NCBI RefSeq assembly: GCF_000002425.4
Contig: NC_037256.1
Coordinates: 2,202,051-2,266,050, forward strand
Source: Physcomitrium patens
Taxonomy: Eukaryota > Streptophyta > Bryopsida > Funariales > Funariaceae
DNA: 64,000 bases
Direction of reading: 5' to 3'
Numbering within the stretch: position 1 is the stretch's first letter; each line of letters begins with the position of its first letter. The position numbers and the translations under genes are program-made. Under the pieces are notes generated by a model, which did not search any database, was not told where the DNA came from, and was given only the letters and a program-made list of their open reading frames with translations. This document shows, piece after piece, positions 3,721 through 64,000 of this stretch.

Positions 3721-5754
3721 CGTGATGAAGTCCATAGAAACTGAAGACCATGGTCGACGTGGAATCGGCAATGGTTGTAGAAGTCCATAAGGGCAATGTC
3801 GAGGATTCTTGGATCTTGAATAGATGTCATAGGAGAAGACAAAATCTTTCACATCCTTCCACATTTGAGGCCACCAAAAATCTCAAGAAATAAGCTCCAA
3901 GGTCTTATTGAATCCAAAGTGTCCCATAGCTAGAAAATCATGGCGAGATTGAAGAACTCAAAGTCGTGCTGGTCCTTTTGGAATATACAACTGCTACTCA
4001 AAGTATAAAAGATCTCCCTCCACCTTGAACTTGTCATCATTGGCACACTGCTTGATATCAATGGCTATTGAATCTTCAATAATTATGGTACATACCTAGT
4101 TCAGGAAGTCAGCATCAATTGGCACAATAGTAGTGCAAAGCTGAAATTACTCTTGCTTCAACAACGTCATATATTGTTGATCAAACGCTGCTTCTCTAAC
4201 CTTTGGTACAAGATACAATCTCCTCGATAAGGCATCGGATAGTCCTTGCTGCTCTCTAGGTCGATAAGTGATAACAAAATCGAACCTAGATACAACATAC
4301 TCCACCAAGCTTGACGTCGATTTAGAACTCGAGTCGATATGAAATACTCCAAATTCTTGTGATATGTGTATACGGTCACTAGGTGTGCAGTTCCTTCAAG
4401 AAAATGACGCCATTCTTGGAAAGAATCCACTGTAGCAAGAAGTTCCTTATCGTAGATCTCATAATTGATTACAGCAGTAGAGAACTTTCGAGAACAGAAT
4501 GCAACCGGATGGAGCTTCTTGTCTTCTCCCATTTGTGAAAATACAACTCTCAAAGTAAAATCCAAAGCATCAGTTTTTAGATAGAAGGCCTTTGTAAAGT
4601 CTGGATGTATCAAGATTGGAGCCGTAATAAATGTAATTTTTAGGTCTTGAAATGCCTTCTTCGCTAGAAGTTCCCATTCCAACTTATCCTTGCATGTCAA
4701 CCGAGTGAGAGGAGCAGCAACTTGAGAGTAATTCTTGATGAATGTCCGATAGAAGTTAGCAAAATCAAGAAAGTATTATACGTCTCTAACTGTCTTCAGA
4801 ACCTCCCAAGACAAGATTGCTTCCACCTTCTTCGGATCCATCTTCAAGCCTTCCGTAGTCGCAACAAACTCCAAAAATTCCATCTCCATTTGGTGAAATA
4901 AACACTTCTCCAACTTGGAACATAGTCCTCGCTCGCATAGTTTCTCCAGGACCAAATGAACGTGCTTTTCATGCTCTTCTTCGTTATTGGAGTATATCAA
5001 AATATCATCGAAGTAGATGACAACAAAATCGTCAAGGTACTCCCAAAAAATGTCATTCATCATATGTTGGAAGATCGCTGGAGCATTATTAAGATCAAAG
5101 GGCATGACATTATATTCAAAATGGCCATACCTTATACAAAATGCTATCTTCCACTCATCTCCTTCTTTGATTCGTACGAGGTTGTAAGCTCTCCTTAAAT
5201 CAATTTTTGTAAAGATCCTTGCACATTCAAGTTGTTTTAAGAGACCAAAAATTAAGGATAACAAATAACGATTCTTCTTTGTTACCTTGTTGAGGCCTCG
5301 ATAGTCCACGCACATCCGTAATGAGTCATCTTTCTTCTTCCCAAATAAGATGGGTGCCCCAACTGACGATTTTGAATGATGGATGAAGTTTTTGGCTAGA
5401 TTCTCGTCAATGTACTTCCACATCTCCGCCAACTCTGTTTGCGATAGATTGTAGATTGGGCCAAAAGGCGGTTGTACTCCTTCCTTCAAGTCTATGGCGC
5501 AATCATATGATCGGTGTTCCGGTAGCATGTCGACATTCTTCTTTTGAAACACATCTTTAAAATCCCTATATTACTTCGATATATTTACTATCAAAATCTT
5601 CTCCCCTGTAGTTGGAGCCGCATAAATGACAAATGGTGTGACTTCCTTGGACGATCTTATAAACATTCTTACTTCAATGAATAAGAATTTTTCTATTTGC
5701 GATTTTCTACTAGGCTTGCTCTTAGGTAGTTTTGTGGGAAAGATCATCTTTCGC
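3721..5754 (-). pseudogene. CHR1 copy a pol: RT, RNase H, start of integrase
   Basis: The minus-strand RT frame 5552-4776 reads through [16 protein letters not shown] and M-P-F-D-L-N-N-A-P. The catalytic box reads Y-F-D-D instead of Y-L-D-D. RNase H follows (4700-4167: T-D-A-L-D-F, with Y-E-I-Y-D-K-E-L-L), and then the integrase zinc finger and first core residues up to 3721. RT copies element RNA in the particle; RNase H degrades it. Frames are broken between domains, so the enzyme is dead. The 5754 end is where a GYP4 solo LTR cuts the protease-RT linker. Confidence 0.88.
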
Positions 5755-6833
5755 TGTCGAGATAGAGAGGTTTTGCCTCAAGAAAGCATTGGGCTTCTGG
5801 CTGTCACTAATTGCTCAATCAAGCTTAAAATAAGGAAATCCTAATTTTATATATATAAGTTCTCCTTTTGAAACAATTACACCAAATACTTAAGTCTTAA
5901 ATAACCAACAACACCCAAAATATGATTGAAGTACTCTAAAACCTTGTATATCCTTGTGTGGAAATTCTCCCGAACCTCAACACCTTATAACTCTTGATCA
6001 AATCGTCCAAACAAGATCAAAATTTACATGAAGTATTGATATGCTGTTATTAATTTGTACAACAAATTTCAACTGCAAATTCGCTACGGATCTTGAGATA
6101 TCTTCAAAACCCTAATAGTTGCTTCAAACCCTAATCTTTATATATCCACGCGCAATTTTCTTTATATCTCACAAACCATAAGTTCAAATGCCACGAAACT
6201 TATATAGATAGCTTCTTAATACAAATGCTTACATTTTTTAAAATTTTGAGCCAAAATTTCGTTCGAAAACTCAAGTTATGGCTCCTAATACTACTTTGAA
6301 CAAAACCACTCACTTACTGCCTTTGATTTGAATGCATTGTCTTTAATTCCCTATAACTCCTTCATGTAAACTGCAAATGCAAAATTTCCTTTGCAAAAGA
6401 TGTATGTCTTGAAGTTGCTCTTCCAGCCGCACCTTTCGATTTCCAAAAGCTTTCGTAAGACTCCTCTTAAATTCAAAAGAGTAATAGTAGGTCTCAAATT
6501 GACACCTTAACTTCAAACGGCTATAACTTATTCACCCTCATTCCAAACCCTATAAAATTTACACAAAAATTGTAGCCAAATCCTAAACTTTACAACCCTT
6601 GCCTTTGATTTCCTAATGGCCTCTTTGAAGTCGCCAAAATCCTTATCAAGGTCGCGGATAGCCTCCTAAAAGTCCATTCGGCATGGATTTCGACCAATGG
6701 AGATGAAGATCCTTATTTCTACCTTCATCCAACCATGCCTTGGTTTCATCCCTCTCAATTAACCTCCTATTAGTTTAAATCTTTATCTTTAGGCTTCTAC
6801 CTTCTCCCAAGGCTTCATACTAAACATTTAGGT

Positions 6834-6871
<38 letters not shown>

Positions 6872-7027
6872 ATGTCAAAACCAAAAGAAATAAAGAAACA
6901 AAGTAAAGTTTCTTATACCAACTCTTTTTAATTTAATCTACTAGCCACTCTAACACACATCTAGATTTATCAACATATAATATGTTTTATTTAATTTTTA
7001 CATACTGTAAACATTTACAATACGTCA
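5755..7027 (-). repeat. GYP4 solo LTR, target duplication CCGC
   Basis: It begins TGTCGAG and ends TACGTCA on the plus strand; comparison with the other copies puts the sense on the minus strand. The flanks are TCGC (5751-5754) and CCGC (7028-7031). The intact CHR1 sequence at this point (reverse complement of about 34010-34020) reads CTTCCGCAAC once, so the 4-bp duplication is confirmed by the empty site. An (AT)n run lies at 6838-6867. No coding region is present, so this is a solo LTR left by LTR-LTR recombination. Confidence 0.88.
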
Positions 7028-7770: not shown

Positions 7771-8853
7771 TGTTGGGGTAGAGAGAGTTTGCCTCAAGAA
7801 AACGTTGGGCTTTTGGTTGTCACTAATTATTCAATCAAGCTTGAAAATAAGAGAAGCCCTAAGTTTATATATAATTTTTTTTTCTTTCTGAGTAATTACA
7901 CCAAATACACAATCCTCAAGTAACCCACAACTTCCAAAATATGATAAAATCTTCTAAATCCTTGTTTATTCTTATGTGGAGATTTTTCCGAAATTCAACA
8001 CTTCATATCTCTTAATCCGACCGTCCAAACAAACTCAAATTTTACATGAGATACTGATGTATTCTTATTAACTTCTATAACGATTTTCAACCGCAAATTC
8101 ATTGCAGATCTTGAGATATCTTGAAATCCCTAACAGTCGCTTCAAACCCTTGTCTTTATACATCTGCGTGTAATTTTCTTCATATCTGACAAAATATAAG
8201 CTCAAATGCTACGAAATTTGTATGTATAGCTTTTTAACACAAAATTTTACATTCTCCAAAAAGTTTGAGCCAAAAATTCGTCCGAAAAATCAAGTTATGG
8301 CTTCAACCATTACTACAAATAAATCAGCTTACTTATTGCTTTTGATTTGGAAGTGTCGCCTTCAACTCCTTACAACTCCTTCATATGAACTCCAAAAGCA
8401 ATAATTCTTTTGTAAAAGATGTAGGCCGTAAAATCGCCATTCTAGTCGCACCTTTCAATCTTCAAAAGCTACTGTAAAACTCCTCGTACTCTCAAAAGAG
8501 TAACAGTATGTCTTAAATAAACACCTTAACTTCAAACGGTTATGACTTTTCACCCTAACTCCAAATCCTCTAATTTTTGTAAAAAAATTGTTCTCCAAAT
8601 CTTAGACTTTACAACCCTAGCTTCTAATATCCAAATGCCTCTTTTGAAGTCATCGAAACCCTTCTTAAGGTCGCAGGCAGCCTCCTCAAAGCCCATTGGG
8701 AATGGTATTCGACCAATAGGGATGAAGTTTCCCATTCCTTGCCTTCATCCGACCATGCCTTGCTTTCATCCCTCTCAATTAGCTTCCTACTAGTTTAGAT
8801 TTTCATCCTTAGGTTTCCACCTTTTCCCAAGATTTCATACTAAATATTTAGGT

Positions 8854-8891
<38 letters not shown>

Positions 8892-9046
8892 TATCAAAAT
8901 CAAAAGAAATAAAGAAACAAAGTAAAGTTTCTTATTCCAACTCCTTTTAATTTAATCTACTAGCGACTCTAACATACATCTAGATTTATCAACATATAAT
9001 ATGTTTTAACTAATTTTTACATATTATAAGCATTTACAATACGACA
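7771..9046 (-). repeat. GYP4 solo LTR, target duplication GCGT (decayed)
   Basis: TGTTGGGG...ACGACA on the plus strand, about 1.28 kb, closely similar to 5755-7027, with an (AT)n run near 8858-8888. Flanks are ACAT (7767-7770) and ACGT (9047-9050). The matching CHR1 gag sequence (reverse complement of about 55440-55460) reads GAGCGTTTG once, so the target was GCGT with later G-to-A changes. The insertion is within CHR1 gag, downstream of the capsid core. Confidence 0.88.
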
Positions 9047-16356: not shown

Positions 16357-18085
16357 ATGAAAGAAATGATTATGGATGCTATTCCTAACAAAAGTAAGAA
16401 TAGATTTGCAACTATTGTGGATCTTCACGAGCTTATCAATACTCTTAGGGCAAAAATTTCACGCATCACCAATATCAATCACAAGAGTACTGCTTCTATA
16501 CCTATGGAAAAAGTCCAAAGTTTGTATCAGGAAGTTGTATAATTGAGGAAAACAAATTAATTAGCCTCACAACCAAATTCAAGGGATCTTACTTCTACAA
16601 GCTCAAGAGAGACAAGAATTAATATGCTCAAGAATTTTGATAGAACAAGATCAAAATTTTAAGGATTTTTATAATAAATTAAGCTCTATTTAAGGTTATA
16701 CCTTATTCATTACATAGATGGATTTACTCAAGTCCGCTTCATAGGTGCACTTCAATTTAGAAGTATTCTTTCATAGTTTATACCTTTGATAGAAAAGGAT
16801 TCACGATGTTGAGGTAGAGAGAGTTTGCATCAAGAAAGTGCTATGTTTTTGGCTCCCACTAAATGCTCAATCAAGTCTAAGATACAAAAGTACCAAGAAA
16901 GTGTCCTCTCCAACTCTAGTCACCGATCTTTCATTGCTCTTTGTATGCATATGTTATATTTCAAAGAATGAAAGTAGGTACAAATTTGACATCTTAACTT
17001 TGAACACCTATATCTCCTTCATAAAAACTTGAAATCAGACATATTCTTCATCCAAATTATATCTAAAACCTTGAATTTGTTGACCCTAGCCTCCAAAGCT
17101 CAAATGACTTTGAAAGAAAAATCCTAATCCCTAATAAGGCATCGATGAGCCTCCTTGAAGCCGATTAGGCATGGCCTTTGACCAAGAAGAATGAAGATTC
17201 TCATTCCTTGCCTTCATTCAACCATGCCTTACTTTCATCCCCCCCAATAAGCCTCCTATTAATTAAGAATTTCTTCTTTAGGCTCTAATCTCTTCTCAAG
17301 GATTCATACTAAGATTTAAGTTCTATACTTTTTTTAAAATAGTATAATTAAAAAGTTAAAATTTAAAATAAAGTTTCTTAAATCTACTATTTTTAAATTA
17401 ATCTATTAACCATTCTAACATATACCAAGACTTATGAACATATTATATGTTCTAATTAATTTTTACATACTATAAGCATTTATAATATGATAACGACTTC
17501 TTCATGATTTAAATTCATTCTTAGAAGTGTTTACGACTACATGTAGAGAAAGTGATTGAGAACAAGTAGAAGAGACCAAACTCTTATCTTTACGACATAG
17601 ATCACAATCAATAACTACATATGTTGCTAAATTCCAAAACCTTGCTTGCGACGTGGACTAGAATGACAAAGTACTTATCAATTAATTTTGATATAGGTTG
17701 AAGGATAGCATCAAAGATTTGTTATTAATAATGCCAAAAGTAAAATCTTTGAAACAATTTATTGCTCAAGCCATTGCATGTCACAATCGAATATTTGAAA
17801 GAAGTTAAGAACAAAGATTTGGCTGAAAAGGAATAAATCAAGTAATGGTGGCAATTCCCAAGTTTTTTGAAACGTATTCATTAAGGCCAAAATTAATGCA
17901 AATTGATACGATATGTTTTAAATCCCTCATCGAGTAGGAAAAGACTTAATGTCACTAAGAGGATTTGTGTTTGTATTATAGAGAAGCTAAGCACACTACT
18001 CAACATTGTCCAAAGAAGCAACGTAATTATAAAATGAGGAGCATAATTACCAAAGAAGATAATGTATTAAAAAACAAATTTTTCT
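16357..18085 (+). pseudogene. CHR2 copy a gag, split by a solo LTR
   Basis: The first part (16357-16542) is a 61-codon frame with a coiled-coil-like N-terminus in the position of CHR1 gag. After the GYP4 solo LTR (16807-17492), gag resumes. Near 17950-18020 it shows a degenerate zinc knuckle, C-L-Y-Y-R-E-A-K-H-T-T-Q-H-C (second Cys is Tyr). The gag frame ends with CAATAG at about 18089-18094 in the context found in CHR1, and the upstream AAAAAAC is a canonical -1 slippery heptamer. Stops make it inactive. Confidence 0.7.
16807..17492 (-). repeat. GYP4 solo LTR, target duplication ACGA
   Basis: TGTTGAGGTAGAGAG...AATATGATA on the plus strand, a shortened copy of the GYP4 LTR. Flanks are ACGA at 16803-16806 and ACGA at 17493-17496, a perfect 4-bp duplication. 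It lies within CHR2 gag. Confidence 0.88.
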
Positions 18086-42349: not shown

Positions 42350-43102
42350 TTGGGTGCATGTGTATTTTATCGAATCTGGATCCCTCATTTTGTTCACATA
42401 GCGGATCCATTATATGAACTGTTACGCAAGGGTTACCGATTTAAATGGGAAGAAAGGCATATTCAGGCAATGCAAAGATTGAAGAAATTATTGATGTCAC
42501 CTCCAATATTGAGGAAGGTTGATTATAAGTACAATAGATCAGTGATTCTTACTGTAGACGCTAGTCCAATTACCGTTGGATGGGCTCTGGGTCAAGATGA
42601 TTCAAATGGAAGTAGATTTGCAGTTCGATTTGGGGCTAAAGTTTTAAGTATTCGTCAGCATACATATTCGCAAGTCAAAAGAGAACTTTGGAGAGTCGTT
42701 TCGACTATGAAAGCTGAAAAAGATTATTTGATTGGGGCAATAGTAGTAATTGAAACAGATTGCTTGCCATTGCTTGGAATGATTATTAACTGTTCAACGC
42801 CAGATATTGCAATGTTGAGATGGATTGCTTATATTAAGTCACTAAATCCAGAATTTAAGCATATCACTGGGAAGGACAATTTAGTAGCAGACATGCTATC
42901 TCGAGTAAGATACGAGAGGGAGGACAAAATGGTTGAAGACATTGATGATGTCGGATTGAAATTCTATTCAATATCAAATCTCAACAGGGAAGACAAGCTA
43001 TTTCTTGAAGAATCTTATGAAGGAGAATTATTGGATATTGGTCATTATTTGAATACCTTGACTAAGCACGGGAATTGGTCTAAGAAAAATTCAAACAAAT
43101 AA
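42350..43102 (+). pseudogene. GYP1 copy a RNase H
   Basis: An open stretch of 250 codons starting in the RT connection (G-A-C-V-F-Y-R-I-W-I-P-H-F). It continues with L-T-V-D-A-S-P-I-T-V-G-W-A-L-G-Q-D, Y-S-Q-V-K-R-E-L-W, I-E-T-D-C-L-P-L-L-G-M and G-K-D-N-L-V-A-D-M-L-S-R. The acidic residues D, E, D of the RNase H fold are visible. It ends with TAA at 43100-43102, after which integrase starts in another frame. Confidence 0.85.
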
Positions 43103-44415: not shown

Positions 44416-44468
44416 CAATTGGATAAATTGGCGCATACCGGAGGATGCACAGGTTCAGAGGGGGTGGA

Positions 44469-50240: not shown

Positions 50241-51513
50241 TGTCAAGGACAAGAACTTGATAAAGATAAATAAACAAATGAGACTTCTCTTAAAGAAAGA
50301 TGACAAAATAGAAATAACTCAATATGTATATTAAGAAAGAAACTGGAATGGCTATTGCCAAAAGACAAGAAAACTAGAGACCCTTGAAACTAGACTAGAA
50401 GCAAGAAAGGAATTGATAAGAGTGAAGAGGCCTTTACTCTTGTCTCTATATATACTATCTAACTAGAGACTACGTTGTCGTATTGTAAAAGCTTACAATA
50501 TGTAAAAATTAATTAAAATATATTATATGTTAATAAATCTAGATGTACATTAGAATGGTTAATAGATTAATTTAAAGAGAGTGGATTTAAGAAACTTTAT
50601 TTTGAGTTTATCTTTTTAATTATAGCATTTAAAAAAAAATCATAAGACCTAAATGTTTAGTATAAAACCTTGAGAGGAGATTAGAGCCTAAAGAAGAAAA
50701 TCTTAACTAGTAGGAGGCTTATTGGAAGAGATGAAAGCAAGGCATGGTTGGATGAAGGCAAGGAATAGAATCTTCATTCCTATTGGTCAAAGGCCATGCC
50801 CAATGGACTTCAAGGAAGTTGCTCGAGGCCTTATTAGGAATTAGGGTTTCTCTTTCAAAATCGTTTAAGCTTTTGAAGCTAAGATCAAAAAGTATATTAG
50901 TACTTTATGTATAATTTTAGGTTGTTTGGATAGTCCGATCATGAGATATGAGCTATTGAAGTTTGAAAAACATCTCTCATAAGGATATATAAGGTTTTAA
51001 GATCTTTATCATATATTTGGGTATTTTCTTAGTACTTGGGCTTGTATTTTGATGTAATTGCCCAAAAAGAAAAAATATTATATATATAAACTAGGTATTT
51101 TATATCTTAGACTTGAGTATTTAGTAGGAGCCAGAAGCCCAACACTTTCTTAAGGCAAACTCTCTCTACCCCGACAATGTGGCAATATTCTATAGGACCT
51201 CTAATATGTGTTGAATTTGTAAGACACATGCTTTAACTTACAAGGTAAGTTTTTTTACATGTGTGCCATATAGTTAGCTTGATCTTCAAGCTAACAACAT
51301 GTGTGGCTTATGGCCAACTTTTTGACCATGTTTCTAATCCAAAATAGTCAATTAAAGACACCTATAAAGTTAAAGTAGCATCTATGAAGCTTCTAAGAAG
51401 CTATCATACCAAATATTATAGAATTAATTTATTTTTATCTACTTTTATATATTTTTACTTATTTCTACTTATTTATATATATAATTATTGGCTTACATGC
51501 GTATCCTATGACA
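50241..51513 (-). repeat. CHR2 copy b 3' LTR with nested GYP4 solo LTR
   Basis: Plus-strand ends are TGTCAAGGAC and CGTATCCTATGACA. It matches the solo LTR 25255-25806 on both sides of the insertion at 50476-51176. It contains the complement of a TATA box (TATATATA, about 50447-50454) and TTGATAAGAGT (about 50415-50425), the decayed complement of the CHR2 transcript start. Confidence 0.9.
50476..51176 (+). repeat. GYP4 solo LTR, target duplication ACGT
   Basis: TGTCGTATTGTAA...CTCTACCCCGACA, 701 bp, sense on the plus strand. Flanks are ACGT (50472-50475) and ATGT (51177-51180). The empty site in the other CHR2 LTR (about 25480-25500) reads GGCTACGTGGCG once, so one flank lost its CpG by C-to-T. 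Confidence 0.92.
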
Positions 51514-51821: not shown

Positions 51822-53023
51822 TGTCGTATTACGTGCTTTCCTACTTGAGAACGCGCCGGGCGTCTGGCTGTAGAAGGTAGTATGGAGATTCGCTAATATT
51901 CAAGCAGTTTATCGATTTTTGATTGTTGGAATATAAACAACTGTAAGAATATATTGTAAATCTATACGGATGTCCTTCGACTGCTCGCCAAAATCCTTTT
52001 TGTCCCAGCCGGTAGGTCTCTAGACGTTACAGAGAACCCCGAACAACCCAAACTGCTAATCTTCGATACCGCTTTATACTCACGATCTTGTATCCACTGA
52101 CTGTCTCGTTAGATTAACCCAATAAATTTCATTCACTTTGCATATTCAAACCTATAGACATCCTTTTAATTCTTCATCACAGATGTAACTCGATTTCACA
52201 AAACAGTCAAGAGTAATCACACCCACTTCATTAAAATCCCGATTCACCAGTACAACACTGACTTCAGCAATGATTGCCTCAGTCTTCTAAAAACCCTATG
52301 AAGAAAAAAAAACCCCCCAATTCTTTGTCTTTTTTCCTCGCCCCGAAGCATGAAGCTAACTCTCCGACCCTTCTAAAAAACTTCTTCTCTTCCCTTCCAT
52401 TTTTTTAACCTATCCTCCCCTTTAACCCTAATTCTTCCCTCTCTCAAACCCTAGCCTTTGAATTTCTTCAATCTTCTGTCTTGGATCCGAAATTGGCTCC
52501 CGCCGTCAGAGCTTTCTCCTCCGTTTTTACCTTTAAGAGATCCTTTTATCGAAAGGACGTTCCCGAAACGATACAAAGGACGAAACAACCTGAAACGGAA
52601 TCGAAGCCCCGTAATCAGGACCACATTGAGTCGCCCGACCAATTCAGGTCTCATATTGGCTAAGAGGCCCGTAGTAAGACCTGGATGTTCCCGTAATTGG
52701 ACCGCATTAGATTGCCCGACTAAGTCAGGTCTCATATTGGATAAGAGGACCTGGATTGGATGTCTTGAAATTGGATCCAATTGGCTCTTTGAACCAGGCT
52801 CACCCATCGTTGAATTGGTCCTTTTTCTTTCTGCTGACTCTCGTTACTGGAATCGAACGGAGCATTTCAGTATGCCCCGGCTGACTGTAACGGGGTGACT
52901 GACCCTGGCCTCTCAATATTTGTACTGGAATTGGTCGTTGCTCCCAATATTCGAGGTAATTGAACATTAATAAAAGTCCCCTTTCTTTATATTTTCACGG
53001 TATACTCGTGTTACAACACGACA
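51822..53023 (-). repeat. GYP1 copy b 3' LTR
   Basis: Plus-strand ends are TGTCGTATTACGTG and TTACAACACGACA. The polypurine-tract complement (TCCACCCCCTCTG) follows, so on the minus strand this is the 3' LTR. Confidence 0.94.
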
Positions 53024-53049
53024 TCCACCCCCTCTGAACTTGTGCATCA

Positions 53050-54043
53050 TTCAGTATGCACCAATTTATCAAATTGTTGTGTGATTTATAATATATTCTC
53101 TACGTCTTTGTCCAGTTCGTCTTCGTCACCTTCATTATCCAAATCACTTTCATCTTCTTGCTGCGTACCTAACTTACGTAATTCTCCTTCAATATTATAT
53201 AATCTCTTTTCTTTCTTTTCTTTTAAAATCATCAACTTTCTTATACATAATATCTCCATTCTCCAAAATACCAATAAAACTAGCATCAAAGGCACCTTCA
53301 TCTCGCGAGAGTACTTCCTCTTTTGTACCTCCATAATCTGGCTTTACAGTGGTACCTCCCCAAAATCCTTAAATCCTTTTATAATCTTTGGCAATGGTTT
53401 CTCCCTCAACCTATCTCGATTCCGTTCATGGTTGGAAGGTACTGTTAGAAATTGTACAACTTTCCTCCTATCTTCACTACGTACCCTTGCATAAGCAGAA
53501 CCATCGTCAAGTACTTTTGTTTCCATCCGTGTTGCCATAATATAAGATTGTCTTTAAATCAACGGATAAGACGTTGTATCTTGAACAAAGAAATGTTGCT
53601 CCGTCGCAACATCTCCAATCCGAATTTAGACATCTGAACAAGCTCCATATAATTCGCCCCATATGTTATTAGCTGCTCGTATTGCCCATCCATGTTCCAT
53701 ATCAATTGGCCATTTTTGCTTCTTATAAAGATCTTAAGACATGAGATTTATTTCAGAACCATGGTCGACCAAAGCAACTATTGGTTCTTCTATATCTCCT
53801 ACCTTCACCAATATCTCAGTAGTTGCCCTTGCCCAATGCTTTCGAGTATAATGGCTCAAAGTTTCCATTTCCTTGTCACTAGAATCTTCGAAACGTACTC
53901 GTTGATTATACCCATTCTTTTCATTTGTTGGTTGCTTGTAACCAATATCAACCTCTTCTTCATCTCTATATATTCTTGCATCAATAGCATGACTCATTCC
54001 AGTTTCAAACATTAATTGCCTCTTTCGCTTAATGCTGTCAATG
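53050..54043 (-). pseudogene. GYP1 copy b protease, linker and deleted pol
   Basis: On the minus strand: V-D-H-G-S-E-I-N-L-M-S (about 53770-53735) and then a stop, followed by the protease end with two stops at 53626-53628 and 53554-53556. The linker M-A-T-R-M-E-T-K-V-L-D-D ends at 53344. The frame 53334-53086 runs from the linker (R-L-Y-N-I-E-G-E-L-R-K-L-G) directly into Q-Q-E-D-E-S-D-L-D-N-E-G-D-E-D-E, the integrase C-terminus. Everything between (about 3.2 kb in copy a) is missing. Confidence 0.88.
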
Positions 54044-54072
54044 TGTCATGGACATACATTGGAAGATTCTTT

Positions 54073-54204
54073 GAATATTCTTCTAGAATATTCTCTAAAG
54101 ATTCTCTAAAGATTCCTTTAGAAGGTTCTAGAAGATTCTTAGAATATTCCTTAAAGATTCTCTTAGAAGGTTCTAGAATATTCTTAGAAGGTTCTAGAAT
54201 ATTC
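54073..54204 (+). promoter_or_regulatory. Array of heat-shock-element-like GAA/TTC modules
   Basis: Perfect alternating GAA-2nt-TTC units occur at 54121-54138 (GAAGGTTCTAGAAGATTC), 54166-54183 and 54187-54204, four units each, plus a three-unit set at 54081-54093. The heat-shock element consensus is nGAAnnTTCnnGAAn. The array ends about 105 bp before the TATA box. Confidence 0.7.
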
Positions 54205-54308
54205 TGATAGATTCTAGGAAGTTGCTCGAGAAGTTTCCTAATTAGTAGAAGTTGTTGGAGAAGCGTCCTAGTTAGCGGAAGTAGCTCGAGAAGCTTCCTA
54301 TTCAGTAG

Positions 54309-54317
54309 TATATATAG
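54309..54317 (+). promoter_or_regulatory. CHR1 TATA box
   Basis: TATATATAG in the LTR, conserved in position in all CHR1 copies, 32 nt before the predicted RNA 5' end. Confidence 0.75.
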
Positions 54318-54340
54318 GAGTCGAGACTGAAGGGTTCTTT

Positions 54341-54351
54341 AGTCTCGACAA
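54341..54351 (+). promoter_or_regulatory. CHR1 predicted RNA 5' end acting as primer
   Basis: AGTCTCGACAA is the exact complement of TTGTCGAGACT at 54480-54490, just after the LTR. Its distance from the TATA box fits a transcription start. Confidence 0.65.
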
Positions 54352-54479
54352 CACATCTCTTGGAGTTTTAGCTCACCTTTTCTGGTGTTGTTCTTGTACT
54401 CATTTGTTTAATCTAGTTCTGCCACTTCTTCTTGAACTTCTTGTTAGATTTCAAGTCTGTATTTTGTGTCCGTGACAGT

Positions 54480-54490
54480 TTGTCGAGACT
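54480..54490 (+). promoter_or_regulatory. CHR1 self-priming site (PBS)
   Basis: TTGTCGAGACT begins two bases after the 5' LTR, where a minus-strand primer site is expected. It pairs over 11 nt with 54341-54351. In Tf1-type chromoviruses the RNA 5' end serves as primer by such an 11-nt match. Confidence 0.65.
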
Positions 54491-54780
54491 GCATTTTCAC
54501 TGGTATCAGAGCTAGTTCCTTCTTGTTAGAGAGTGGATTACCCCTCTTCTTGAAGGTGTGCTAGTGTTTTAGAGGTTGCGGATTACCCTCCTCTAAACTG
54601 ATATCTCTTCTTTCTCAATATTGGAGCCTTATTCTTCTTGGAGAGAGTGGATTATCCCTCATCTTGGAGTCTTAAGGCGTTTTAGAGGTTGCGGAGTACT
54701 CTCCTCTGAACCAATATTGTCCTCTTGTCAAAACTCTTTTTTCTTCTTTCTGAAGGTTAGCCGAAGGTTAAGACGTTAAA

Positions 54781-55783
54781 ATGGCTGAAAGTTTGGAATC
54801 CAAACTAGACGCCATCATAAATGCTCTTGCCTCGTTGTCACATAGGACAACAGAGATCGAAGGAGTCATGGTAGGACTCCATAACAATGGAGCATCTGGG
54901 ATAGCGCCATCTAAAGCATATCAGCCTCAAAACTTCTGCGCCAGAAGAAGCAGTTCTACCTCCATTTCAACAAGATCGAGTAGTCCTACAACGAAAGGAG
55001 CCTCGAGTTAGTCTTCCGGATAAGTTTGATGGAACTTGTTCCAAGTTTCGAGGTTTTATCAACCAAATCAGGTTGATAACAATTTTACAGCCCGAACGTT
55101 ATCCGACGGAGGAAGCGCGTGTTGGGCTTGTTGGAACCTTGCTTACAGCACAAGCTCTGTTTTGGTTTACTCCCTTGTTCGAGAAGCGATCGCCAATCCT
55201 GAACAACTTTGAAACGTTCTTGGAGGCGTTTGCAGAAGCATTTGGCGAGCATGATAAAGTTCGATGGGCTACAACAAAGATCCGATCGCTACGACAAGGA
55301 ACACGCTCTGCATCAGTCTATGCCTCGGATTTCAGACAATTGGCAAGTGACATTAATTGGGGTGAAGAGGCGTTGGTGAGTCAGTTTTATTGGGGCTTGA
55401 AGGATGATGTGAAGGACTTGCTGTTATTTCTTCCTGATCCTCAAACGCTCAACGAAGCTATTAGCCAAGCTGTAAAGTGTGACAACCGCCTATTCCAGCG
55501 TCGCCAAGACCAACGTCCAAGACACCAAATGACTCGTTACGACGTGACTATGTCTGCAAATAGCTTAAACTCACATTCGGAGGCAACAAACATGCAAATC
55601 GACACGGCGCGTATCCGATCTCTTACTCCAACAGAGAAGAAATGGCGTATGGAGAAAGGGTTATGTTTGTACTGTGGAGAAGAAGGTCACAAGGTTGGAA
55701 ATTGCCCAAAGAAGCAAAATTGGCACCTTGTCAAGACTAGAAGTGCGATGATTCCGGAAAACGACGACGCCCAGCCACAGTAG
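54781..55783 (+). pseudogene. CHR1 copy c gag
   Basis: Begins ATG-GCT-GAA at 54781 with S-L-E-S-K-L-D-A-I-I-N-A-L-A, heptad-like. A single extra A near 54932 shifts the frame (copy b reads CAAACTTCT, here CAAAACTTCT). The correct frame continues to 55783. Capsid blocks are V-G-L-V-G-T-L-L-T-A-Q-A-L and F-Y-W-G-L-K-D-D-V-K-D-L-L. The zinc knuckle C-L-Y-C-G-E-E-G-H-K-V-G-N-C is intact (55664-55707). Gag ends with CAG-TAG in a context shared by copy b and CHR2; protease follows in the -1 frame. Confidence 0.92.
55720..55783 (+). promoter_or_regulatory. gag stop and candidate -1 frameshift region
   Basis: Protease is open in the -1 frame upstream through the gag stop. An A-rich hexamer in the gag frame lies about 20 nt before the stop: GAA-AAC here, AAA-AAT in copy b, AAA-AAC in copy a, and AAA-AAC preceded by A in CHR2. 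The context CA(A/G)-TAG-(G/A)(A/G)A-CCG-TGC is conserved in three of four copies. Confidence 0.45.
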
Positions 55784-55788
55784 GAACC

Positions 55789-56330
55789 GTGCGGCTGGAC
55801 AATCTAATATCACGACAACAATCAGGTTCCTCCTTCTCTGTCCAACCTGCCCGTTGTTTTACAATTCCTTTGTTTTTAGGCCCTCAAAAACAAAAAACTT
55901 TAGCTTTATTGGATTCGGGGGCATCTACTTGTTTTTTAGATGAAGAGTTTGCTAAATGCCACAAGATCCGTTTAGTACAGAAGTTCAAACCTGTTCACGT
56001 AGAGGTGATAGATGGACGAACCTTATTGTCAGGCAACGTTACCCACGAATCAGAACCTATAGAAGTGGTGTTTAAGGACCATAGTAGTCACGTTATTTTT
56101 AATATTATTAGAACCCCATCAAGCCCTGTTATCCTTGGTCTTTCTTGGTTAGAAGATCATAATCCGTCCATTGATTGGAGGCTACGAAGGATAATATTTC
56201 CTGAAAAAAATAATAATAAACCTGTTGGTAGAACCTACATGAAGAAATCCATGTTTATTGGAGCGAGAGCGTTCCTAAGATCGTCCAAGGAAGGCGCACC
56301 ATTTGTCATTTATGCAGCTCCAACTAGCGG
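55789..56330 (+). pseudogene. CHR1 copy c protease (coding intact)
   Basis: It reads L-A-L-L-D-S-G-A-S-T-C-F-L-D-E-E-F-A with the catalytic Asp at 55912-55914 and D-S-G-A intact, then V-H-V-E-V-I-D-G-R and V-I-L-G-L-S-W-L-E, the retropepsin fold. The first codon of the open frame is GTG in RLDN context, and the frame stays open upstream past the gag stop, so the natural entry is likely a ribosomal frameshift. This protease would mature the polyprotein in the particle. It continues into RT. Confidence 0.9.
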
Positions 56331-57130
56331 CGAGAATATCTCAACATCGAATATACCAGAGCAATATAGGGATTTTGAAGACGTGTTTCAAAAGAAGAAC
56401 GCCGATATACTGCCGGAACATTGACCATATGATTGCGCCATAGACTTAGAGGAAGGAGCACAACCACCTTTTGGTCCAATATACAACCTATCGCAGACGG
56501 AGTTGGCAAAATTGCGGAAGTACATCGATGAGAATCTAGCCAAGAATTTTATTCGACATTCAAAGTCACCAGCTGGAGCACCAATCCTATTCGAGAAGAA
56601 AAAGGATGGCTCACTGCGGATGTGCTTGGACTACCGAGGACTCAACAAGGTGACGAAGAAAAAATCGCTATCCCTTACCTTTGATCTCCGGCCTCTTAGA
56701 TCAACTTGGACGTGCAAGGATTTTTACAAAGATTGATTTAAGAGGAGCCTACAACCTTGTGCGAATCAAAGAAGGAGATGAATGGAAGACAACCTTTCGT
56801 ACAAGGTATGGCCATTTTCTGTACAATGTCATGCCTTTTGGTCTTACCAATGCTCCAGCGGTCTTTCAGCATATGATGAACGACATCTTTCGGGAGTACC
56901 TCGATGACTTTGTTGTCATCTATCTGGATGATATTTTGATATTTTCCAAGAATGAAGAAGAACATGAGAAGCACGTTTGTTTGGTTCTTGAAAAACTACG
57001 CGAACGAGGACTCTACGTCAAGTTGGAGAAGTGTCAATTTCACCAGAATGAGATGGAATTTTTGGGCTTCATTGCGACTACAGAGGGCTTGAAGATGGAT
57101 CCAAAAAAGGTAGAAGCAATTATATCTTGG
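56331..57130 (+). pseudogene. CHR1 copy c reverse transcriptase
   Basis: It starts near [12 protein letters not shown] and is hit by a TGA at 56422-56424 (CGA in copy b). It reads [18 protein letters not shown]. One extra A near 56663 shifts the frame. It then reads [24 protein letters not shown] and the catalytic Y-L-D-D at 56921-56932. F-L-G-F-I-A-T-T-E-G ends the domain. Family role: minus- and plus-strand cDNA synthesis. Confidence 0.94.
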
Positions 57131-57800
57131 GAAGTTCCGAAGACGGTTAGAGATGTTCAGTGTTTTCTTGGATTTGCTAACTTCTATCGGATCTTCATCA
57201 AGAATTATTCTCAAGTTGCTGCACCACTCACGCGTCTAACAAGCAAAGATAAGCTCGAATGGGGATCACAAGCAGCAAAAGCATTTCAAGATCTCAAGAC
57301 GACATTCACTACGGCTCCAATCTTGGTACACCCTGACTTTGCAAAGGCTTTCTATTTAGAGACCGATGCTTCAGATTTTGCTTTGGGAGCTGTGCTTTCA
57401 CAGATGGGCATAGACAAGAAGCTTCACCCAGTTGCGTTCTATTCACGGAAGTTCTCTGCTGTTGAGATCAACTACGAGATCCACGACAAAGAGCTGCTTG
57501 CTATAATGGATGCCTTCCAAGAGTGGCGTCACTTCCTCGAAGGAGTTGCACATCCAGTGACTGTTTATACGGACTACAAGAATTTGGAGTACTTCATGAC
57601 AGCTCGAATTTCGAATCATCGTCAAGCCCGATGGAATATGTCTCTATCACGATTTGACTTTATTATCACCTACTACCCTGAAAAACAGCAAGGATTATCT
57701 GACGCATTATCGAGGAGATCGTATCTTGCGCCAAAGGCTGGAGAAGCAGCGTTTGATCAACAATGTACAACATTGTTGAAACCAAAAAAATTCAGGATTT
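57131..57800 (+). pseudogene. CHR1 copy c RNase H (coding intact)
   Basis: Open within the frame 56681-58078. The connection F-L-G-F-A-N-F-Y-R-I-F-I leads to L-E-T-D-A-S-D-F-A-L-G-A-V-L-S-Q (about 57356-57403), I-N-Y-E-I-H-D-K-E-L-L (catalytic Glu) and V-Y-T-D-Y-K-N-L-E-Y-F. It ends with the linker to integrase R-R-S-Y-L-A-P-K. Confidence 0.93.
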
Positions 57801-58798
57801 TTGCTACTGTTGCAACTATCGATGGCGGCTTCCTCACCGAGGTACGTACTGCAACCATTGAGGATTCTATAGCTCTTGACATCAAACAACGTGTCGATAA
57901 TGACAAGTTTAAGGTGGAGGGAGATCTTCTGTATTTTGAGGAGCGGTTGTATATCCCGAAAGGACCAACTCGACTCCAAGTACTTCAATCTCGCCACGAC
58001 TTTCCAACTGCGGGACATTTTGGATTCAACAAGACTTTGGAGCTCATTTCACGAGATTTTTGGTGGCCCCAAATGTGAAAGGATGTGAAGGAATTTGTCC
58101 TTTCTTGTGATGTTTGTTCAAGATCCAAGATCCCTCGACATCGTCCGTATGGACTTCTCCAGTCATTGCCTATTCTGCACCGACCATGGTCTTCAGTTTC
58201 TATGGACTTCATTACGGACCTAACGCCATCGAATTCATTTGGCAGCATCTTTGTTGTGGTGGATCGATTTACAAAGATGGCGCATTTCGTGCCTTGCAAG
58301 AAAACATCGTCAAGTGAAGACACCGCAAGACTCTTTCTTGATAACATATATCGTTATCATGGCCTACCAGATGATATCGTGTCGGATCGAGGTACTCAGT
58401 TTGTATCCAAGTTTTGGAGGTCCCTCTTTGAGATATTGAAGGTGGATATTAAGCTCTCTTCGGCTTTTTATCCTCAAACTGATGGTCAAACGGAGCGGGT
58501 GAATCAAGTTTTGGAGCAATATTTACGATGCAGCATCAACTATCAACAAGATGATTGGACTGCATATCTACCGCTTGCTGAGTTCGCATACAACAACACT
58601 CTTTATGCGTCAACTCAACAAACACCATTCTTCTCCAACTACGGATACCACCCCAAGCTCGATTTATTGAGTTCTTCAGCAAATAACAACCCAGCAGCTG
58701 AAGGATTTGTGAAGCAACTATCGGAGCTTCAAGCGACGTTGAAGCTTCAATTGCAATCTGCCCAAGAGAGTTACAAGGCATCTGCAGATAAATATTGA
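57801..58798 (+). pseudogene. CHR1 copy c integrase core
   Basis: Zinc finger H-D-F-P-T-A-G-H then C-D-V-C (57997-58125). A TGA at 58076-58078 replaces the Trp of M-W-K-D (copy b has TAG there). Core: M-D-F-I-T-D-L (Asp), V-S-D-R-G-T-Q-F (Asp), D-G-Q-T-E-R-V-N-Q (Glu), all three catalytic residues present. TGA at 58796-58798 is a decayed CGA. The enzyme joins cDNA to the target with 5-bp staggered cuts, as the CAATG duplication shows. Confidence 0.93.
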
Positions 58799-58799
58799 A

Positions 58800-59261
58800 A
58801 TGAGGCGCCTACTTTTAAAGATTGGAAGTAAAGTATGGCTTCTTCGACGGAATATCAAGACCAAGCGGCCATGTGACAAATTGGACTATCGGAGATTAGG
58901 GCCATTTGTTATCGGGAAGCAGATCAATCCGGTGGCATATCGTTTGGAGTTACCAGCTACTATGAAGGTACATCCAGTCTTTCATGTGTCTTCGTTGGAA
59001 CCTTATCGAGAGTCAGCTTTTCCCCAAAGAGTACAAAGTCCGCCACCAAGTATCGAAATTGAAAACCATGAGGAATACGAGGTGGAAAAGGTACTAGATT
59101 CACAACGTAATAGGAGAAAATTGGAATATTTAGTGCATTGGAGTGGATACGACATCAATGAACGAACGTGGGAGCGTGCCGAAAATCTTGCCAATGCACC
59201 AAAAAAGGTACAAGAATTTCATCAACGATATCCTCATAAACCTAAGCCGATTCAACGATAG
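58800..59261 (+). pseudogene. CHR1 copy c integrase GPY/F module and chromodomain
   Basis: A frameshift of one base near 58815-58830 separates it from the core. L-G-P-F-V-I-G-K is the GPY/F module, followed by V-H-P-V-F-H-V-S-S-L-E-P-Y. The chromodomain (about 59070-59220) reads E-E-Y-E-V-E-K-V-L-D, L-E-Y-L-V-H-W-S-G-Y-D-I-N-E-R-T-W-E. Y, W and Y occupy the three aromatic cage positions of HP1, so it should be able to bind methyl-lysine on histone H3. The C-terminus Y-P-H-K-P-K-P ends at TAG. Confidence 0.93.
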
Positions 59262-59387
59262 CTTCTTGCTGAAGCTTGCTCATCAAGTAGCATAAAAAGG
59301 GGGGAGGGCACCTCCAAAACCCATAGTTCGATAGTGTAGAACTTTGTTAGCAACTATAGTTTGCTCTCATCATTTTAGCCTTTGGAC

Positions 59388-59735
59388 ATGGATAGTCAAG
59401 ATACTACACTTGTTATGTCATCTCAAGCGACTAGCTCACGAAGACGACCGCGAGATGAAGAACCGCCTGCACCACGACGACATCGGAGGATACCGAGCAA
59501 CAGATCGCTAGGAATTGTATTTGAGGTCGAGCCTGCCTACGACGGTCAGCCAGAAGGTGTGTTTGGAGGACAGTTTCACAATGAAGACACAGAAGTCCAC
59601 GCTTGGTCAGAGGTTGAAGGTGTTGGTCACTACCGTTGGCTCCAAGGGCCGATGAATCATTTGCCTCGCGAACAACAATTGGAATTCATAGCGGATGTGA
59701 TGCGACAGGTTTTCATTTTCTTGCGTTGGTATTGA
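59388..59735 (+). CDS. CHR1 third ORF, 115 aa, function unknown
   Basis: Starts at ATG 59388, 127 bp after the pol stop, and ends 50 bp before the 3' LTR. The N-terminal third is Arg/Pro-rich (S-R-R-R-P-R-D-E-E-P-P-A-P-R-R-H-R-R), likely disordered or nucleic-acid binding. The C-terminal part is compact: H-A-W-S-E-V-E-G-V-G-H-Y-R-W-L-Q-G-P-M-N and E-Q-Q-L-E-F-I-A-D-V-M-R-Q. No transmembrane segment or signal peptide is seen, so an Env-like role is not supported. It is intact here while pol is broken. Homologues at 45797-45973 and 51520-51800 show it is part of CHR1 and CHR2. I do not recognise the family. Confidence 0.75.
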   Translation: MDSQDTTLVMSSQATSSRRRPRDEEPPAPRRHRRIPSNRSLGIVFEVEPAYDGQPEGVFGGQFHNEDTEVHAWSEVEGVGHYRWLQGPMNHLPREQQLEFIADVMRQVFIFLRWY

Positions 59736-59765
59736 CTGATAACAACATTGCTTCTCAGAGACCTC

Positions 59766-59785
59766 GAAGTTAGAAGAGGAGGTGA
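59766..59785 (+). promoter_or_regulatory. CHR1 polypurine tract
   Basis: GAAGTTAGAAGAGGAGGTGA immediately before the 3' LTR, the expected plus-strand primer. Copy b has AAAGGAGGGAGTGA at the same place. Confidence 0.8.
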
Positions 59786-60197
59786 TGTCATGGACATACA
59801 TTGGAAGATTCTTTGAATATTCTTCTAGAATATTCTCTAAAGATTCTCTAAATATTCCTTTAGAAGGTTCTAGAAGATTTTTAGAATATTCCCTAAAGAT
59901 TCTCTTAGAAGGTTCTAGAATATTTTGATAGATTCTAGGAAGTTGCTCGAGAAGTTTCCTAATTAGTAGAAGTTGTTGGAGAAGCGTCCTAGTTAGCGAA
60001 AGTAGCTCGAGAAGCTTCCTATTCAGTAGTATATATAGGAGTCGAGGCTGAAGGGTTCTTCAGTCTCGATAACACATCTCTTGGAGTTCTAGCTCACCTT
60101 TCTGGTGTTGTTCTTGTACTCATCTGTTTAATCTAGTTCTGCCACTTCTTCTTGAACTTCTTGTTAGATTTCAAGTCTGTATTTTGTGTCCTTGACA
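59786..60197 (+). repeat. CHR1 copy c 3' LTR
   Basis: TGTCATGGACA...TGTCCTTGACA, 412 bp. It lacks one 22-bp unit of the GAA/TTC array present in the 5' LTR; otherwise about 11 substitutions by hand count. Confidence 0.96.
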
Positions 60198-61899
60198 CAA
60201 TGATAACATCATGAAACTCCTTCTTTGCAATTTCCAAAACTTCTTTCAATGTGAATTCCACCTTAGCATTTAATATACGTTCTTCCAACACCCCTTTCAA
60301 ATTTGTTGCCGCTTCAATGTCAGAAAGTAGCTTATAAGCAATTGATTTGTCCTTATCTTTTGTCTCCCTTGTTTTTTCTTCCAATGATGCTAAGGTATCC
60401 TTTACATGCAATTCTTGTGAAGCTGCCTCCCGAGCCTTGTCTCCTCGAGTTTGCCTCTTAGAAGAATTTCCTTCTCTCGTATCATCAAAATTTCCTCATC
60501 TCTTTTCTTCCATCAAAGCTTCATGTTGGCTCTTAGCAATATATGCATGAACTGAAAGAAACTCAACAGGATCCTCCCAATCTGTTCTACCTCGTATTGT
60601 AGCTGCAGTTCTCAATAGCGCATCTCGAGGTAATTTCCCTTCTTGCATTGTAGAAATGGCAGAAGCCCAAAACTCACTAGCTTCCGTACTTCCACCAATT
60701 TCATCATCTACTCTAGCACCATAACTTGCACTTTCTCATGCTACTGTTTCATGCTCTTTTAAGTAATCTTGAACCAATGCTCTCATTCCTCCCTTGCCAA
60801 AATTGGTTTGAAGAAGATCCTTCCTATCTTTTAATACTATCTTTCTATCTTTCCAGCAAATAATTCCTTGCCATATCATATTATTAAATTCATTGCAATC
60901 TTTTTTAGTGTGTGAAGCATCATCACACCAAATGCATCTTTGTACATATCCTTGTTTTGAAACATTCTTCAAATTATTTGTAGAAGTATTCTCTTCAAGT
61001 CTTGCCAATTTAATTTAAAGATCTTGCATTCCTCGTATAATTTCTTCCATCCCCATATTTGCCTTCTTTGATAAGGATGTCGAAGGTTGAACTGTAGGCA
61101 TTGTTGGTGGTGTTGTACGTAGTGGAGCTTTGGGTGCTTGTACTGTTTTCGGAATATTGCTCCTATCCTTCCTCCTTTCTCTTTTTGTAAGCAACCCCAC
61201 CGCATCTTCAATGTTCTTCCACTTTGTTGTCAATCCTTCATCTTCTTCTTTGTCTTCAAGAAGGAGTTCTAATTTCCCTTGCAATTCTCCATCGGCAGCT
61301 TGAAGAAATAGATCAACTTTGTTCGGCTCCAATGTCAATTTTTCTACCTTCGATAATTGAGAGTACTACCTCTCAAATTTCCTTAGTAGCTGTGTTGCTT
61401 GCAAATTCTTATTAGGTCGTTCAATCCATTCCAGAAACAGCTTCTTAGTAACGTGATCAGTATCTTTCAAGAAATATTTGTCTTTCAATGCATGTGAAAA
61501 AACCTCCCATGAATTCCCATAACGATCCGTAATCGATGTAATATGGTCTCTTATCTCTGGTATCATAGCAAGTCCAAATAATTCAACCATTTTCTTCTCA
61601 GAAACCCGATTTAATTCCATTTCACGAACATAACATCTTAAATACCTTGAAATATTTCTTCCATCAAATTGATCAATTTTATTGACCACTGCTTGCAATG
61701 CTTTGGTTGCTAAAGCTTTCTTTCGATCATTACTTTGTTGTTGCTTCATTGATAATGAGAAGGCTTGAAACATATTAGCAATAGATGGATCCATGTGCAT
61801 ACCTTGTCCTTTAGAAGAATCCCTACTAGAAACTCCTCCCAAAGATCCTTGAAAATTTTTATTTTCGTTCTTCGTAAAAATAAAAATAAAATCAAACAA
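60198..61899 (-). pseudogene. GYP1 copy b gag
   Basis: On the minus strand from about 61899, with S-K-G-Q-G-M-H-M-D-P-S-I-A-N, then V-N-K-I-D-Q-F-D-G-R-N-I-S-R-Y-L-R. Stops: TAG (CAG) near 61375, TAA (CAA) near 61016, TGA (CGA) near 60737. The zinc knuckle C-I-W-C-D-D-A-S-H-T-K-K-D-C is intact (about 60940-60900). It provides the 46 codons missing in the N run of copy a. The frame is cut at 60203 by CHR1 and continues at 54043. Confidence 0.88.
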
Positions 61900-61919
61900 A
61901 ATCCAATACCTTCCACCTC

Positions 61920-61946
61920 AAGCTTTCACGTCGAGTTCACCACTTT
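61920..61946 (-). promoter_or_regulatory. GYP1 copy b primer-binding-site-like motif
   Basis: On the minus strand GTGGTGAACTCGACGTGAA follows the 5' LTR by three bases; copy a has the same motif with one difference. The matching tRNA was not identified. Confidence 0.5.
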
Positions 61947-61947
61947 T

Positions 61948-63148
61948 TGTCGTATTACGTGCTTTCCTACTTGAGAACGCGCCGGGCGTCTGGCTCTAGA
62001 AGGTAGTATGGAGATTCGCTAATATTCAAGCAGTTTATCGATTTTTGATTGTTGGAATATAAACAATTGTAAGAATATATCATAAATCTATACGGATGTC
62101 CTTCGACTACTCGCCGAAATCTTTTTTGTCCGAGCCGGTAGGTCTCTAGACGTTACAGAGAACCCCGAACAACCCAAACTGCTAATCTTCGATACCGCTT
62201 TATACTCATGATCTTGTATCCACTGACTGTCTCGTTAGATTAACCCAATAAATTTCATTCACTTTGCATATTCAAACCTATAGACACCCTTTTAATTCTT
62301 CATCACAGACGTAACTCGATTTCACAAAACAGTCAAGAGTAATCACACCCACTTCATTAAAATCCTGATTCACCAATACAACACTGACTTCAGCAACGAT
62401 TGCCTCAGTCTTCTAAAAACCCTATGAAGAAAAAAAAAACCCCAATTCTCTGTCTTTTTTCCCCGCCCCGAAGCATGAAGCTAGCTCTCCGACCCTTCTA
62501 AAAAACTTCTTCTCTTCCCTTCCATTTTTTTAACCTATCCTCCCCTTTAACCCTAATTCTCTCCTCTCTCAAACCCTAGCCTTTGAATTTCTTCAATCTT
62601 CTGTCTTGGATCCAAAATTGGCTCCCGCCGTCAGAGCTTTCTCCTCCATTTTTACCTTTAAGAGATCCTTTTATCGAAAGGACGTTCTCGGAATGATACA
62701 AAGGACAAAACAGCCTGAAACGAAATCGAAGTCCCATAATCGAGACCACATTGAGTTGCCCGATCAATTCAGGTCTCATATTGGCTAAAAGGCCCATAGT
62801 AAGACCTGGATGTTTCCGTAATTGGACCGCATTGGGTTGCCCGACCAAGTCAGGTCTCATATTGGATAAGAGGACTCGGATTGGATGTCTTGAAATTGGA
62901 TCCAATTGGCTCTTCGAACCAGGCTCACCCGTCGTTGAATTGGTCCTTTCCCTTTCTGCTGACTCCCGTTATTGGAATCGAATGGAGCATTTCAGTATGC
63001 CCCGGCTGACTGTAATGGGGTGATTGACCCTGGCCTCTCAATATTTGTACTGGAATTGGTCGTTGCTCCCAATATTCGAGGTAACTGAACATTAATAAAA
63101 GTCCACTTTCTTTATATTTTCACGGTATACTTGTATTACAATACGACA
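61948..63148 (-). repeat. GYP1 copy b 5' LTR
   Basis: Plus-strand ends are TGTCGTATTACGTG and ATTACAATACGACA, 1201 bp, nearly identical to 51822-53023. ACGC follows at 63149-63152, repeating 51818-51821. Confidence 0.94.
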
Positions 63149-64000
63149 ACGCATTGTATCTTGCCATCTATTCAAGAAAGAACATGTCATTCTTGAAGGT
63201 TGTCACAATCATAATGTCTTGTCTGGTAGGTCACCAAACAAAGGCTCTTGAATCGAATCTGATGGTTGTTGCTTCTCCATTTCTTTAGTGTCACAACTAC
63301 AAAGAAGCTACAATCAAGGATTGAAAGTAGAATGTTATCTTGTCTAAATCTTGTTTCTTTTATAAAGAAGGTTTTTATCTTGATTTTGATGGATGTCGTC
63401 GATGAAAAGCTTCCACCACATTTACTGCATTTGTAAGATTCTTTACTGGCTCCCATGTGTATTCATTAATATCATAACTGTACCAATGGACAAGATATTT
63501 CAATTTATTTTGACGCTGTCTTGAATTTAAGACTTCTTCTACTTCAAACTCTTCATTATTTTCTACTTCTATAAGAGGAGGTCGAGCTTGTTTTCTTTTT
63601 GATATGTCTACTATCTTGTATGGTTCAAAAAGAAATATGTGGAATAGTAGATGGATTTTTATTGACTCTGGTAGGTGTAAACAATATGTAATTGGATTGA
63701 TTTATATAAAAATAGAAAATGGTCCAAATCTTTGATAGTCCAACTTGTCACAAGAATGAGTGGTCTTAATATTGCAACAAAGTAGCTATACCTTATCATC
63801 CATGTAGAATGGTGGTTGTTCCTTTCGATAGATATCTACATTGACTTTTTGTTGTTCTTGAGCTTCTTTTAACTATGCCTTCATTGTTGCATGTAGCTCT
63901 GACAAATGAATTGCCAAATCTTTTGCCATAAGATTATCAACTTTTGAAAAGTCAAAAGTATTAAGTCGTAGATAATAACCATAACTAGCAAAGAAAGGTA
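63149..64000 (-). pseudogene. CHR2 copy b chromodomain and integrase C-terminus, runs off the window
   Basis: On the minus strand the chromodomain (about 63590-63430) reads E-E-F-E-V-E-E-V-L-N-S and L-K-Y-L-V-H-W-Y-S-Y-D-I-N-E-Y-T-W-E-P. Two of three cage aromatics are as in HP1 and the first is Phe. Before it (63640-64000) lies the GPY/F region, followed to the window edge by the end of the integrase core, decayed. 63149-63420 is the spacer between chromodomain and third ORF, where GYP1 copy b inserted. It may be better preserved than CHR2 copy a. Confidence 0.82.

Follow-up and report, generated by a model that had tools for sequence, protein, structure and literature searches.

What does an integrase recognise in its target when insertion after insertion lies around the same dinucleotide? 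The question is raised by a stretch of 64,000 nucleotides of the moss Physcomitrium patens (NC_037256.1, here contig C4, positions 2202051-2266050, of a 470.4-Mb genome in 101 contigs; hereafter the window), which holds seven insertions of two families of long terminal repeat (LTR) retrotransposons, GYP1 and GYP4. A preliminary description read these insertions as flanked by 4-bp duplications of the form NCGN, took CG as the recognised feature and CA or TG flanks as its decay products, and proposed that a taste for CpG, perhaps methylated, explains why the elements nest inside others. According to our analysis, elements of this kind very probably carry an integrase that joins the ends of the complementary DNA (cDNA) four bases apart around a CG that the intasome reads directly, TG and CA flanks being mostly products of deamination.

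CG at the centre of insertion sites across the genome

Three LTR queries were run against the genome and the best 40 of the 4886 to 7041 candidates for each were read, so that the sample consists of best-scoring copies rather than random ones. It comprises 93 GYP1/GYP4 insertions, among them the seven from the window, each with one outer flank or two; GYP1b denotes copies found by the LTR of the window element at 51822, and L numbers designate loci. Three loci were dropped from the counts: L009, whose junctions repeat those of L004, L040, for which the script returned no junction pair, and the internal L105. The left side was disregarded in L003 and L021 and the right side in L012 and L030, where it consists of internal sequence (primer site or polypurine tract), and so was the left side of the rearranged L101; GYP1 LTRs from full elements contributed only their outward side. 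Also outside the sample are one reverse match on contig C11 from the second query and matches of the third query beyond 20 insertions. The degenerate LTR ends of L073, L081, L110 and L131 were set by hand, and insertions sharing a host site were merged on the basis of 30 bases of flank.

The central step of the 163 flanks was CG in 120, TG in 21, CA in 15 and something else in 7 (GG 2, CT 2, TA 1, TT 1, CC 1). CG was found in 50/78 flanks of GYP4, 46/52 of GYP1 and 24/33 of GYP1b. Merging left 85 insertions with 149 flanks (CG 111, TG 19, CA 14, other 5), and 74 of the 85 had CG on at least one side. Among the 64 merged insertions with two flanks, 37 were CG/CG, 20 combined CG with TG or CA, 4 were of one type (TG/TG or CA/CA), 2 were CG/CT and 1 was CG/TA. 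CG makes up 1.7% of the steps in the window and 1.33% in ten 10-kb stretches elsewhere (a 100-kb sample), and the finding of CG on both sides in 37/64 has a binomial p of about 2e-52. The early impression that CG-centred targets exceed chance is therefore confirmed. If the 60/64 insertions that show CG on either side are all scored as CG, and the four same-type pairs are taken for native TG/CA targets, the preference for CG is about 140-fold per available site.

Shape of the target

We then profiled 63 of the merged two-flank targets over the 20 bases around the site, reading the left flank (in one of the 64 the flank was too short). CG occupied the central step in 46/63 and between 0 and 3 of 63 at every other step. 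With both strands pooled, the first duplicated base was A in 56%, C in 22%, G in 13% and T in 9%. T preceded CG in 13/148 cases, as compared to 36% of random CpGs (p 2.7e-14), and TCGA was absent from the 74 insertions with CG, as compared to 15% of random CpGs. The target pattern is V-CG-B. Outside the duplication, positions appeared background-like by eye. Four features are direct observations: the 4-bp stagger, the CG at its centre, the shortage of T at the first duplicated position and the lack of an evident outer motif. This profile, together with the complete lack of pairs with TA on both sides, gives good support to CG as the recognised feature.

The seven insertions in the window

All seven flank pairs of the window are as they had first been read. 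Four of these insertions have homologous hosts free of the insertion, in which the four bases are present as a single copy. Two of them, GYP4 solo LTRs on the minus strand, lie in the same chromovirus-like host copy: the LTR at 5755..7027 has flanks TCGC/CCGC and an empty site CCGC at 34011-34014, and the LTR at 7771..9046 has flanks ACAT/ACGT and homologous sites GCAT (near 33271) and GCGT (near 55446). The strand given for GYP4 LTRs is their inferred sense, from the polypurine tract adjoining the LTR in L012 and L030. The GYP1 solo LTR at 31626..33116 (plus strand), also in a chromovirus-like host copy, is flanked by ACGA/ACGA, its empty site is ACGA at 55291-55294, and a homologue near 9202 reads ACGT. 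Finally, a plus-strand GYP4 LTR at 50476..51176, shorter than other copies, has flanks ACGT/ATGT, an empty site ACGT near 25482 and a further homologue in the window with ACAT.

The 4-bp duplication stands for these four sites, but not for the plus-strand GYP1 element at 37152..45794 (LTRs 37152-38488 and 44469-45794; flanks TCGT/GCGT), which shows no clean duplication. Its flanks align about 235 bases apart (59320 and 59559) in the single host copy compared, so that TCGT/GCGT is not established as one duplication; LTR recombination may have fused two separate insertions here, the host may have undergone a deletion, or the copy compared may carry an indel. Both flanks are NCGN nonetheless. Two minus-strand insertions have identical flanks and mixed homologues: the GYP4 LTR at 16807..17492, shorter than other copies (ACGA/ACGA; homologous sites TCAA, AAGA, ATGA and ATGG), and the GYP1 element at 51822..63148 (ACGC/ACGC; LTRs 51822-53023 and 61948-63148), which is interrupted by another element. 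The LTRs of both families start with TG and end with CA. In GYP1 a polypurine tract lies immediately 5' of the 3' LTR and an apparent primer site a few bases past the 5' LTR, which indicates that the LTR ends are well placed.

The interrupting element at 54044..60197 (plus strand) is of the Ty3/gypsy type and served as control family; chromovirus is the label it received in the preliminary description, and ours by resemblance. As reported there, it is flanked on both sides by a CG-free 5-bp duplication, CAATG. Elsewhere, 20 LTRs of this family gave 18 sites, of which one contained CG (GCGAT; counted by eye), and the duplications with both ends seen were five bases long (TCTAT/TCTAT and ACTAC/AGTAC).

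Three side observations concern these elements. Tandem repeats of about 79 bases lie at 31903-32262 within the GYP1 solo LTR, and search matches suggest that their copy number differs from LTR to LTR. Three GYP1b LTR pairs span about 5.17 kb (L119/L120, L131/L132 and L141/L142; G000:C20:7442503-7447672, C2:14607382-14612552 and C10:9292332-9297514), as compared to 8.6 kb for the window element, and are perhaps a non-autonomous short form. In L163, a control-family LTR sits inside the final bases of a GYP1 LTR, beside the GYP1 primer site.

Decay of CG and the proposed mechanism

Flanks with TG or CA were mostly paired with CG on the other side. By our own arithmetic, if each flank decayed independently with a probability of about 23%, 36 undecayed, 22 half-decayed and 3 double-decayed pairs would be expected, and 37, 20 and 4 were seen (first 61 merged pairs). 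We also surveyed homologous sites for 70 two-flank insertions before merging, 55 of which had a bridging site among the sequences compared. At least one homologue had CG at the site for 40/55 insertions. Across 261 homologues the site step was CG in 81, CA in 70 and TG in 55, the remaining 55 being other steps or gaps, and CG made up 1.9% of the flanking steps of the same homologues. The use of flank decay as a signal of age was dropped: GYP4 flanks are more decayed than those of GYP1, but match identities do not show GYP4 to be older.

We propose that the GYP1/GYP4 integrase inserts both cDNA ends with a 4-base stagger centred on CG. Like the intasomes of foamy virus and murine leukaemia virus, that of GYP1/GYP4 would bend the middle of the target, and it would also read the two central C-G pairs directly, as suggested by the scarce use of TA, another flexible step. 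TG and CA flanks would mostly come from later CpG deamination, one side at a time.

Several observations weigh against this proposal. The four double-decayed pairs are all of one type, while half would be expected to be mixed, and the site of L004 (ATGC/ATGC) reads ATGC in all three host homologues found; for these two reasons a small number of TG targets may be native, and the reading of CA/TG flanks as decayed CG stands for most flanks rather than for all. No homologue with CG was found for 15/55 insertions, and the 7/163 flanks listed above as other fit neither CG nor its product after a single decay change. A structure model of the integrase was poor (mean pLDDT, the predicted local distance difference test score, 56.6) and lends the predicted central contact no support.

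Nesting, CpG supply and methylation

On a different reading, the elements would recognise methylated CpG and thereby find silent DNA through the target base itself. We consider this improbable. In its favour, CG methylation was reportedly not detected when P. patens genes were pooled (PMC5410703), and the ratio of observed to expected CpG exceeded 0.6 in the flanks of only 10/39 GYP4 loci (L009 being a duplicate of L004), as compared to 69% of the CpGs of the random sample. In 19 chosen flank frames from the ten CpG-rich GYP4 loci, retrotransposon domains were found at six loci and none at four, and no host gene was recognised. However, the scarcity of GYP4 loci in CpG-rich DNA could come from a taste for methylated DNA, from selection against genic insertions or from decay of the flanks after insertion. 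Moreover, two stretches, L042 and L044, supply most of the CpG-rich part of the random sample, and insertions in CpG-rich DNA do occur (L033, ratio 0.92; L019, 0.84). Within the CpG-rich DNA of L042, a BAH-domain gene is present twice, in opposite orientations and with about 3.4 kb between the copies (G000:C2:5002691-5003041 and 5006466-5006816).

Nor does nesting argue for such a mark. One comparison of 40-base flanks against a library derived from the window placed 17/93 insertions in chromovirus-like (control family) sequence, four of these 17 matches being self-matches, and 7/93 in GYP sequence; once the seven window insertions were removed, the counts were 13/86 and 7/86. Random CpGs, drawn from ten stretches only, fell in the same two classes in 173/1321 and 98/1321 cases, or 173 and 98 of 929 without the CpG-rich L042; the counts were compared without a significance test. 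Nesting in both kinds of host is about what CpG supply predicts, with no clear excess. The proposal that a CpG taste explains nesting is therefore not supported by these comparisons.

Flexibility, amplification and LTR edges

An intasome that accepts any bendable pyrimidine-purine (YR) step, CG among them, would explain part of the pattern. In retroviruses with a 4-bp stagger, central YR steps are on average 63% above random and duplications tend not to begin with T (PMC4422553), an avoidance also seen here. However, TA, TG and CA account for 9.3%, 6.3% and 6.0% of the steps in the random sample, against 1.33% for CG, yet TA/TA was found in 0/64 merged insertions and TG/TG or CA/CA in 4/64. 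Flexibility alone is thus an unlikely account.

It is very unlikely that a few old insertions, amplified along with their host elements, produced a repeated pattern of non-independent sites. In favour of this idea, a 12-plant survey of nesting (Jedlicka et al., 2019; PMC6911290) reports 26 multi-copy nested pairs, most of them from this moss, with Phygy inserted in Tcn1 as the commonest combination; the junctions of L004 and L009 are identical; and four host sites recur among our 93 insertions. These involve L061, L115 and L127 with L005, L038 with L113 and L143, and L069 with L145, and the host site of the window insertion at 50476 is also occupied in L016 (GYP4) and L110 (GYP1). However, the same pattern remains in the 85 merged sites, and three of the four recurrent sites hold both GYP4 and GYP1; two families at one base pair of different host copies imply separate insertions. 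Such coincidences are more likely if only CpGs are eligible.

That misplaced LTR ends or a shared edge motif feign NCGN is scarcely credible: the LTRs do carry TGTCG and CGACA at their ends, and the hand placing of four degenerate ends includes that of L131, which homologues do not support, but LTR-free empty sites hold a single NCGN, so that this account is excluded wherever the empty homologue is clean, and the CG signal lies unshifted at one step.

The GYP1 integrase and its lineage

In the element at 37152..45794, the broken gag-pol frames run from 38544 to 44415 and fill nearly all of the internal part (38489-44468). The integrase frame at 43291..44412 (plus strand) comprises a zinc-binding part, a catalytic core, a GPF-type C-terminal part and an acidic tail. 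A Pfam scan of this frame returned the zinc-binding domain above the cut-off and the core domain below it. The protein can be aligned with the Ty3 and foamy virus integrases, Ty3 being its best solved relative. The window copy is presumably inactive because an acidic catalytic residue differs from that of its relatives. An RNase H domain lies upstream of the integrase, as fits a Ty3/gypsy element. Pfam matched neither a reverse transcriptase nor a chromodomain in the scanned GYP1 frames, and the integrase ends in its acidic tail past the GPF-type part; the silence on a chromodomain is weak evidence by itself because the scanned frame of the control element also lacked a match.

The integrase has 193 relatives, of which 120 were listed; those named come from Riccia fluitans, Riccia sorocarpa and Ceratopteris richardii (including P0022, P0026 and P0106). 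The presence of such integrases in liverworts (Riccia) and a fern (Ceratopteris) makes the lineage wider than one moss. Scans of viral and genome contigs found no relatives. As for the host, the P. patens BAH-PHD protein A0A7I4DKQ0 (P0155) matches contig C4 at 100% over 117, 48 and 24 residues and at 24/26 in a fourth segment, with the mismatches at one end, which fits P. patens or a very near relative.

Host, features and the NCGN rule, rather than phylogeny, fit an assignment of GYP1 and GYP4 to non-chromodomain Ty3/gypsy elements of the Phygy kind, the class of GYP4 being based only on its LTR ends and target rule.

Comparison with known systems

Neumann et al. (2019; PMC6317226) state in one sentence that the Phygy elements of this moss prefer NCGN. 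The rule was therefore already known, provided that GYP1 and GYP4 are Phygy, with which they share the host, a non-chromovirus Ty3/gypsy origin and the preference itself. The Phygy clade is called species-specific there, whereas GYP1-like integrases are found here in Riccia and Ceratopteris too. Jedlicka et al. describe 4-bp duplications with a GC-rich centre and AT-rich bases around it, and Phygy duplications as mostly 4 bp long, like those of GYP1 and GYP4; their logo pools families, and the term CpG is absent from the main text. Among the papers that our searches listed, and judging mostly by those listings, none evidently measures or explains the strength of the NCGN preference. No other report of CpG-directed LTR elements was evident among the matches listed, by title and the start of the abstract. 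The preference itself has already been reported briefly; what is new here is that its strength is measured, that the lineage extends beyond one moss and that nesting shows no clear excess.

A parallel is also seen with the foamy virus and gammaretrovirus intasomes (PMC4422553), which share the 4-bp stagger, the pyrimidine-purine centre and the tendency to avoid T as the opening base of the duplication. The V-CG-B pattern resembles the foamy virus core V-YR-B with YR narrowed to CG. However, the YR preference of these viruses is weak, while GYP1 and GYP4 use almost only CG, and their outer T/A preference is not evident here. The foamy virus contacts Ala188 and Arg329 fall on the edges of the site or beyond them, so that a contact with the central CG would add to those known. 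We considered the residue at the Ala188 position, acidic or amide in most of the lineage, as the CG reader and rejected it, as the Ala188 contact lies three bases outside the joining points. ZAM-subgroup errantiviruses of Drosophila (PMC5408687) likewise have a sequence-specific palindromic target with CG (CGCG, taking the list in that review in order), but there the entire tetramer is specified, and their LTR ends are AGT/AnT, which the TG/CA ends of GYP1 and GYP4 do not match.

One may speculate, as a rather doubtful extension, that a lineage of moss, liverwort and fern integrases has a CG-locked intasome that contacts the central pairs, binds methylated CpG most strongly and thereby reaches silent DNA through the target base rather than through a chromodomain.

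An integrase that requires one exact dinucleotide would offer a clean handle on how intasomes read their target, which retroviral systems do only weakly. It would also tie the spread of these elements to a supply of CpG that methylation itself erodes.

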